The notes beneath the pieces are model-generated. The model made no database searches. It saw only the letters and a list, made by a program, of their open reading frames with translations, and was not told the origin of the DNA. Shown here one piece after another: positions 13,914 through 15,015 of a stretch of DNA of 64,000 nucleotides. Origin of the DNA: Enterobacteriaceae endosymbiont of Donacia cinerea (GTDB lineage Bacteria > Pseudomonadota > Gammaproteobacteria > Enterobacterales > Enterobacteriaceae); NCBI RefSeq assembly GCF_012569925.1, contig NZ_CP046204.1, positions 188,314 to 252,313 of the forward strand, written 5' to 3'. Every line of letters begins with the position of its first letter. The first letter of the stretch is position 1. A program made the position numbers and the translations under genes.

Positions 13914-15015
13914 TTATAAACCTAATTTTAAACTAGCTTGAATAAATTTATCTAAATTACCATTAAGTACATATTGTACATCATTAATTTCAATTCCTGT
14001 TCTTATATCTTTAATTCTCGAGTTATCTAATATATAAGAACGTATTTGATATCCCCAACTAATATTAAATTTATTTTTTTCTATTTTTTTTTGTATTTTT
14101 TGTTTTGTTTTATTTTGTAATTCATATAATTTAAATTTTATTTGTTTCATAGCTTGACTTTTATTTTTATGTTGTGATCTATTACTTTGACATTGTGTTA
14201 CCAATCCAGTTGGAATATGTGTAATACGAACAGCAGATTCTGTACGATTTACATGTTGTCCTCCTGCTCCTGAAGATCGATATACATCAATACGCAAATC
14301 TTCTGAATTAATAGATATATTAATATTATCTTGAATTTCTGGATAGATAAATGTTGAAACAAAAGATGTATGTCTTCTTCTTGCTGAATTAAAAGGACTT
14401 TTTCTAACTAAACGATGAATACCATTTTCTGTACGTAACCATCCAAAAGCATAATGACCTATAATATGTAATGTAGATGATTTAATTCCTCCTATAATAT
14501 CTCCTGAAGATTCATGTATTATCTTTACTTTAAAATTTTTTTTTTCTGCCCATTTTACATACATTTTCATTATCATTTTTGCCCAATCTTGGGAATCTAT
14601 TCCTCCTGATCCAGCTTGTATATCAATAAAACAATTTTTTTCATCATTTTTTTTAATAAAAATTTTTTTTAATTCTAAAATATTTATTTTATTTCGTATA
14701 TTAGACAATATCTTTATAGATTCTTTTAATATTTTTTTATCATTAGTATCAATAGCTAAATTAATTAATTCATTAATATCAATAATTTCTTGGTTAATCT
14801 CATCTAATGATGATAATAAATTTTCTATATTTATTTTTTTTTTATTTAAAGTAAGGGTGTAATAAATATTATTCCAAATATCGGGATTTTTAAGTTTATT
14901 TTTTATTATTAATAATTTTTTTTGATATTTTGAATAATTAAAGAAACCCCCTAATAAAAATATTTTTTTCTTTTATTTCTTTTAGTTTATTTTGTATTAA
15001 ATGGATTTCTAACAT
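13914..15015 (-). CDS. prfB: Peptide chain release factor 2, with programmed +1 frameshift
   Basis: RF2 ends translation at UGA and UAA. The gene is in two frames. A 25-codon leader starts at ATG 15015 (MLEIHLIQNKLK..., aligned with E. coli MFEINPVNNRIQ) and ends RGFL at an in-frame TAA (14938-14940). A +1 shift after CTT (14941-14943) continues with Asn-Tyr-Ser to the stop at 13914, giving 366 residues (365 in E. coli). The decoding tripeptide SPF (VRKSPFNSARRRHTSF) and GGQ motif (SSGAGGQHVNRTESAVRITH) are intact. A TTG-initiated frame from 14708 would miss about 100 N-terminal residues and is rejected. Uncommon point: the in-frame stop is UAA, where the usual site has UGA. Downstream partner: lysS. 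Confidence 0.95.
14938..14952 (-). promoter_or_regulatory. prfB: Programmed +1 frameshift site of prfB
   Basis: On the coding strand the site reads AGGGGG TTT CTT TAA, the same arrangement as E. coli AGGGGG TAT CTT TGA: an internal Shine-Dalgarno element, 3-nt spacing, slippery CTT-T, then a stop as codon 26. The stop differs (UAA, followed by U), so both RF1 and RF2 could terminate there. Confidence 0.92.

Follow-up and report, generated by a model that had tools for sequence, protein, structure and literature searches.

A UAA stop codon in the prfB frameshift site of the Donacia cinerea endosymbiont and its relatives

The gene for release factor 2 (RF2), prfB, in the endosymbiont of Donacia cinerea carries a +1 frameshift cassette in which the in-frame stop codon is UAA instead of UGA. 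We judge it probable (about 0.7) that this is an ordinary prfB programmed frameshift with a rare stop, in which the shift is obligatory and probably still responsive to RF2, the response being diluted by RF1. That UGA stands at this position almost universally is one of the main reasons for supposing that the frameshift serves to sense RF2 alone, and a full UAA cassette that was kept through a radiation, beside sister lineages of which some have UGA and others lack the shift, provides a natural experiment on whether this specificity matters. The observation is correct, and the UAA variant is rare but published. What comparison of sequences appears to add here is its recurrence in small-genome symbionts and its fixation, as sampled, in two unrelated clades.

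The prfB shift cassette

The window, i.e. the whole stretch of 64,000 nucleotides that was analysed, covers positions 188314-252313 of contig C1, the chromosome of 462,896 bases, and prfB lies on its minus strand. The features are as follows.

14938..15015, minus strand: prfB ORF1, zero frame, with ATG at 15015-15013, 25 sense codons (MLEIHLIQNKLKEIKEKNIFIRGFL) and TAA as codon 26
14947..14952, minus strand: internal Shine-Dalgarno-like AGGGGG, read from the sequence; CCTCC is intact at both 16S-type 3' ends
14944..14946, minus strand: spacer UUU of 3 nt, read from the sequence
14940..14943, minus strand: slip site CUU-U (CTT at 14943-14941); a gene for tRNA-Leu(GAG) lies elsewhere on the chromosome
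14938..14940, minus strand: in-frame stop UAA, followed by U at 14937; UGA instead in genomes assigned to Plateumaris
13914..14939, minus strand: prfB ORF2, +1 frame, RF2 body with GGQ and SPF motifs, matching TIGR00020
12371..13891, minus strand: open reading frame downstream of prfB, which we take to be lysS from enteric gene order

The cassette reported in the preliminary description, AGGGGG-TTT-CTT-TAA followed by T and with codon 26 as the stop, was confirmed at 14938-14952, and its parts are those of the known prfB site as presented in the available portions of two papers (PMC13245932, PMC5009743). An early in-frame stop is followed by the remaining protein in the +1 frame: reading after a +1 slip on CTT-T continues with AAT TAT TCA (N Y S) up to the stop at 13914, and ORF2 matches the RF2 model TIGR00020 with 434.7 bits, above its curated cut-off. 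The Shine-Dalgarno-like stretch stands 3 nt ahead of the slip codon and is matched by the two 3' ends of 16S type that the chromosome carries (GGATCACCTCC), in which the anti-Shine-Dalgarno sequence is intact; for the CUU-U slip site, tRNA-Leu(GAG) is retained among the 30 tRNAs of the genome. The stop, UAA, is one that RF2 can read, as it can UGA. Two textbook features are absent, namely the RF2-only UGA of the textbook autoregulation (UAA stands there in 17/24 genomes of the genus, and an RF1 gene is present) and the weak stop context with C after the stop, this base being U in 22/22 shift-bearing genomes of the genus.

The cassette is not a product of chance, since an in-frame AGG-GGG pair occurs only once among the 371 ORFs of 100 aa or more called in this genome of 20% GC, where AGG accounts for 135 of 3,708 Arg codons and GGG for 309 of 6,639 Gly codons, yet the site is found in 22 of the 24 genomes of the genus, in 17 of them with UAA. 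Restart at an internal codon was considered as the main source of full-length RF2; it is unlikely in the window, because the first ATG, GTG or TTG of the +1 frame (rarer start codons lie outside this check) is codon 77 past the slip. In other genomes of the genus such a codon comes sooner, as at codon 10 in L015 and codon 30 in L006, and an internal start is possible there. A search for loci related to prfB among genome contigs returned a single distant Bacilli locus.

Distribution and conservation of the site within the genus

Comparison of related prfB sites, which the preliminary description had proposed, was carried out in 24/24 genomes of the symbiont genus, two of which were classified by eye: L017, with a run of N just past CTTTAAT, and L004, where one base is missing in an A run past the site. 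TAA was found in 17 (L001, L005-L007, L009-L015 and L017-L022), comprising 17/17 of the shift-bearing symbionts of Donacia and Neohaemonia, and TGA in five assigned to Plateumaris (L003, L004, L008, L016 and L023). The shift is absent from the two genomes assigned to Macroplea (L024 and L025), in which RF2 is encoded in one frame; prfB of L024 has an apparent GTG start.

In a tree of the genus built from one protein, RF2, the Plateumaris rows formed a clade (support 97/99) and all other rows of the genus, the Donacia and Haemoniini fork, grouped together (94/90), with the UAA-bearing Neohaemonia adjoining Macroplea (86/84). When the labels UAA, UGA, none and outgroup were placed on this tree, three changes, the minimum possible, were required. 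Since UGA was also present in 30/30 large-genome prfB loci of the same family (the best-scoring loci), one change from UGA to UAA and one later loss suffice for the genus, and the sequences fit such a history. The change would go back to the common ancestor that the Donacia symbionts share with those of Haemoniini, as the tree suggests, and the frameshift would have stayed obligatory in all descendants read except the two Macroplea symbionts, which have one frame and lost the switch. UAA and UGA differ by one base, and an error of sequencing or assembly could turn one into the other; however, the same base is found in 17 genomes, all on one side of the tree, which refutes this explanation barring an error common to all the assemblies.

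Two loci of the genus show irregularities of their own. In L004, assigned to the symbiont of Plateumaris pusilla, prfB lacks one base relative to L003, within and behind a run of ten A, and the shortening puts ORF1 and the RF2 body in one frame around UGA; it is either a base-call error or slippage on the run of the kind described for Blochmannia genes in the available part of PMC4389277. In L017 the run of N lies inside the gene, directly after CTTTAAT.

The heptamer CTTTAAT is identical in 17/17 UAA genomes, in which the Shine-Dalgarno sequence is AGGGGG in 15 and AGGAGG in 2, with five of its six positions invariant; upstream of the site 36 of 66 bases are invariant in the same genomes. A pattern that includes AGG and CTTT, matched by every one of the 22 shift-bearing genomes, served to find the rows for the conservation counts. 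Among the five UGA genomes the Shine-Dalgarno sequence is AGGAGG in 2, AGGAGT in 1 and AGGAAT in 2, and is thus weakened in 3/5. In the +1 frame past the slip, differences by codon position amounted to 0.217, 0.088 and 0.193 (16 of the 17 UAA rows, L017 excluded), the second position being the least variable. Decay of the control to a fixed low-yield shift, one of two outcomes envisaged in the preliminary description, is unsupported, since the slip site and the Shine-Dalgarno sequence were retained in 17/17 UAA genomes. What such conservation demonstrates is that frameshifting is required, not that regulation is, and it cannot separate the two requirements.

The stop codon itself seems to behave differently from the rest of the site. 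Sixteen genes that end in UGA in the Plateumaris sericea symbiont have a reciprocal best ortholog in the window's genome, where the stop is UAA in 9, UGA in 5 and UAG in 2. Judging from these orthologs, the identity of the stop at the shift site seems to drift like the stops of other genes, and the RF2-specific base seems free to do so. Changed stop usage was rejected as a driver, UGA ending 24 of 371 ORFs in the UAA genome, 19 of 410 in a UGA genome and 27 of 376 in a no-shift genome, with no clear difference.

Release factors and control at a UAA stop

The preliminary description considered that both release factors seem to be needed, and the 24 UGA and 24 UAG stops among the 371 called ORFs agree with this. 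It had also proposed a search for prfA in the rest of the genome; the gene was found, with 473.4 bits against the prfA model, above cut-off, so that loss of RF1 is ruled out. Both factors recognize UAA (PMC12421855; PMC5373646), and with prfA and prfB both encoded the loop cannot measure RF2 alone, as had been supposed. The prfA model matched all 23 UAA genomes searched, 22 of them above cut-off and one, G086, just below it (418.7 vs 423.25). In the RF1 gene of G016 (G016:C1:93335-94447), the RF2 model matches two segments that are separated by about 100 bases within one open frame, which may reflect either an insertion or a divergent stretch.

At CUU-UAA ribosomes would either terminate after 25 residues or slip to UUU and go on to synthesize RF2, and pairing of AGGGGG with the 3' end of 16S rRNA would help the slip. 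Feedback by RF2 is probably kept in a diluted form. By our own derivation, the response of the RF2 level to prfB input equals 1/(1+(1-F)(1-phi)), where F denotes the fraction of ribosomes that shift and phi the fraction of termination events at this UAA that RF1 carries out; according to this formula control would fade only as phi nears 1, and RF2 synthesis would be weakly coupled to RF1. In the accessible part of a study on E. coli K-12, ribosome density was 736.7 for prfB and 82.8 for prfA, i.e. about nine-fold higher for prfB (PMC5373646), and given this figure phi would be small if RF1 and RF2 act alike, so that RF2 may dominate UAA reading in the symbiont.

The yield of the slip may be subject to opposite influences. 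UAAU was argued to end translation more strongly than any other bacterial stop signal (PMC5289835), and by this analogy the UAA-U context may work against slipping and keep the yield low. Loss of RF3 lifted prfB frameshifting in E. coli K-12 from about 28% to 47%, an effect that was smaller with the E. coli B type RF2 (Ala246), as far as the available text describes it (PMC5373646). RF3 gave no match above cut-off in 24/24 genomes of the genus, all of which contain the weaker matches expected of related GTPases, and its absence may work in favour of slipping. At the position of Ala246 the symbiont RF2 has Ser or Ala in all 20 rows (of 24) that yielded the motif; on the other side, the same source reports that it is only with the K-12 type of RF2 that RF1 is the main reader of UAA (PMC5373646).

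An alternative that we regard as rather unlikely is a constitutive shift, in which RF1 sets termination at UAA, feedback by RF2 is gone and the cassette is kept only for the supply of full-length RF2. In its favour, RF1 is encoded and can read UAA, the base in question looks unconstrained given that 9 of the 16 Plateumaris sericea symbiont UGA stops are UAA in the window's genome, and the loss of the switch in Macroplea took place where UAA was already the stop. It was also reported that in Pseudomonas an engineered weakening of the site was offset by, among others, single-base deletions bypassing the stop (PMC13245932, available portion). The shift nevertheless persists in 17 of the clade's 19 genomes, even though deleting a single base would suffice to make it dispensable, and RF2 in E. 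coli is made several times faster than RF1 (PMC5373646); if the same is true here, RF2 would determine most of the termination rate. We consider it much less probable that UAA was favoured, with faster termination lowering RF2 output and a stronger Shine-Dalgarno sequence compensating for it. The median predicted Shine-Dalgarno pairing is indeed stronger for UAA, -10.7 kcal/mol (11 genera) vs -7.0 for UGA (16 genera), with five genera counted on both sides, L004 entered by hand and L017 excluded. However, with relatedness uncorrected, the Mann-Whitney p was 0.17 overall and 0.23 without the window's genus, and for low-GC genera only it was 0.057, likewise uncorrected, a trend that is not significant; moreover, the UAA site of genus g101 is almost without a Shine-Dalgarno sequence. 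The second outcome of the preliminary description, that the site senses total release activity, is fair in principle, but RF2 may still dominate at UAA.

UAA sites in other lineages and in known systems

The statement in the preliminary description that UGA is the usual stop at this site agrees with Prince et al. 2025, who found, in the available text, TGA in 98.6%, TAA in 1.4% and TAG in none of 8,164 motif-bearing genomes, and stated that TAA is not broadly fixed in clades (PMC12421855). UAA at this site is less surprising than was thought, being already published (1.4%) and recurring in small-genome symbionts. Symbiont lineages considered here may be among the TAA genomes of that study, as far as its accessible part allows (PMC12421855). 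Among the literature matches listed (titles and abstract starts), there was no UAA prfB site in insect symbionts. The main text of two reed beetle symbiont papers mentions neither prfB nor a release factor. In the accessible text of a Blochmannia paper prfB appears only as a contig end, with UAA unmentioned (PMC4389277), and in that of a Sodalis paper prfB was excluded from a tree for its known frameshift, again with UAA unmentioned (PMC11137140).

Outside the genus, 103 of the genomes listed for the same GTDB family are of 1 Mb or less, and in 80 of these, which were searched, 76 prfB regions were read (L063-L138). By the criteria applied, the shift is present in 39 of the 76 (27 UGA, 12 UAA); of the other 37 regions, 30 have an in-frame start where expected and seven are unclassified. 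By genus, with that of the window included, the shift occurs in 22/41 genera and UAA in 11 of these 22, both stops being found within each of g1, g39, g101, g110 and g127. A tree of 47 shift-bearing loci, including five rows of the window's genus and three large-genome rows, required 11 label changes, at least seven of them forced by well supported branches; clustering of UAA on it was not beyond chance, 67 of 500 shuffles being as low. The GC content of UAA and UGA genera did not differ (medians over the loci retrieved, 0.22 vs 0.235; p = 0.34).

In the whole family, a search with the pattern AGGRGGNNNCTTTRAYTAY gave matches in 245/392 genomes, and among the matches listed UAA was confined to small genomes, except for a second match of G191. 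This UAA-type match lies apart from the UGA match of the same genome. In the class, 111/274 genomes matched, with UAA in the window's genome, in G558, which has a true prfB with UAA in a region of 57.7% GC, and in G626, whose match is not prfB. In the phylum (pattern AGGRGGNNTCTTTRAY), 107/249 genomes matched, and all 14 UAA matches besides that of the window's genome were read: nine are prfB, eight of them in genus g424 plus one in G752, and five (G851, G802 at C78, G854, G825 and G688) are not. In g424 (loci L242-L249; genomes of 2.1-4.6 Mb, 57-100% complete) the site is found in 8/11 genomes, with UAA in 8/8; the three genomes without it are 76-84% complete. Mutation toward A+T is an unlikely cause of UAA there, since the prfB regions have 52-62% GC. 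Genus g437, of the same family as g424, has UGA matches in 5/7 genomes, and the one that was read is prfB. One genome of g424, G772, has a further UGA-type motif (G772:C24:20894-20909) although its prfB has UAA, which may be due to either contamination or chance.

Taken more broadly, UAA-type sites could be a lasting alternative form of the switch rather than a transient accident, which would sense total UAA-release activity, couple RF2 synthesis to RF1 too, arise repeatedly and be fixable across a clade; we put this forward tentatively, as a possibility well short of an even chance.

The closest known system is the prfB site of E. coli (AGGGGG UAU CUU UGA C). The two have in common a short ORF1 with the stop at codon 26, AGGGGG, a 3-nt spacer, the CUU-U slip and the remaining RF2 in the +1 frame, whereas in the symbiont the stop is UAA instead of UGA, the next base U instead of C and the spacer UUU instead of UAU. 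The in-frame prfB of the Macroplea symbionts is the same gene in a sister lineage of the same symbiont genus, but it is without the in-frame stop and the internal Shine-Dalgarno sequence. With the TAA subset of Prince et al. 2025 the site shares CTTTAA at the motif; that subset, in the available text, is not broadly clade-fixed, in contrast to 17/17 in the Donacia and Neohaemonia symbionts and 8/8 in g424, and these UAA-fixed lineages qualify the published statement (PMC12421855).
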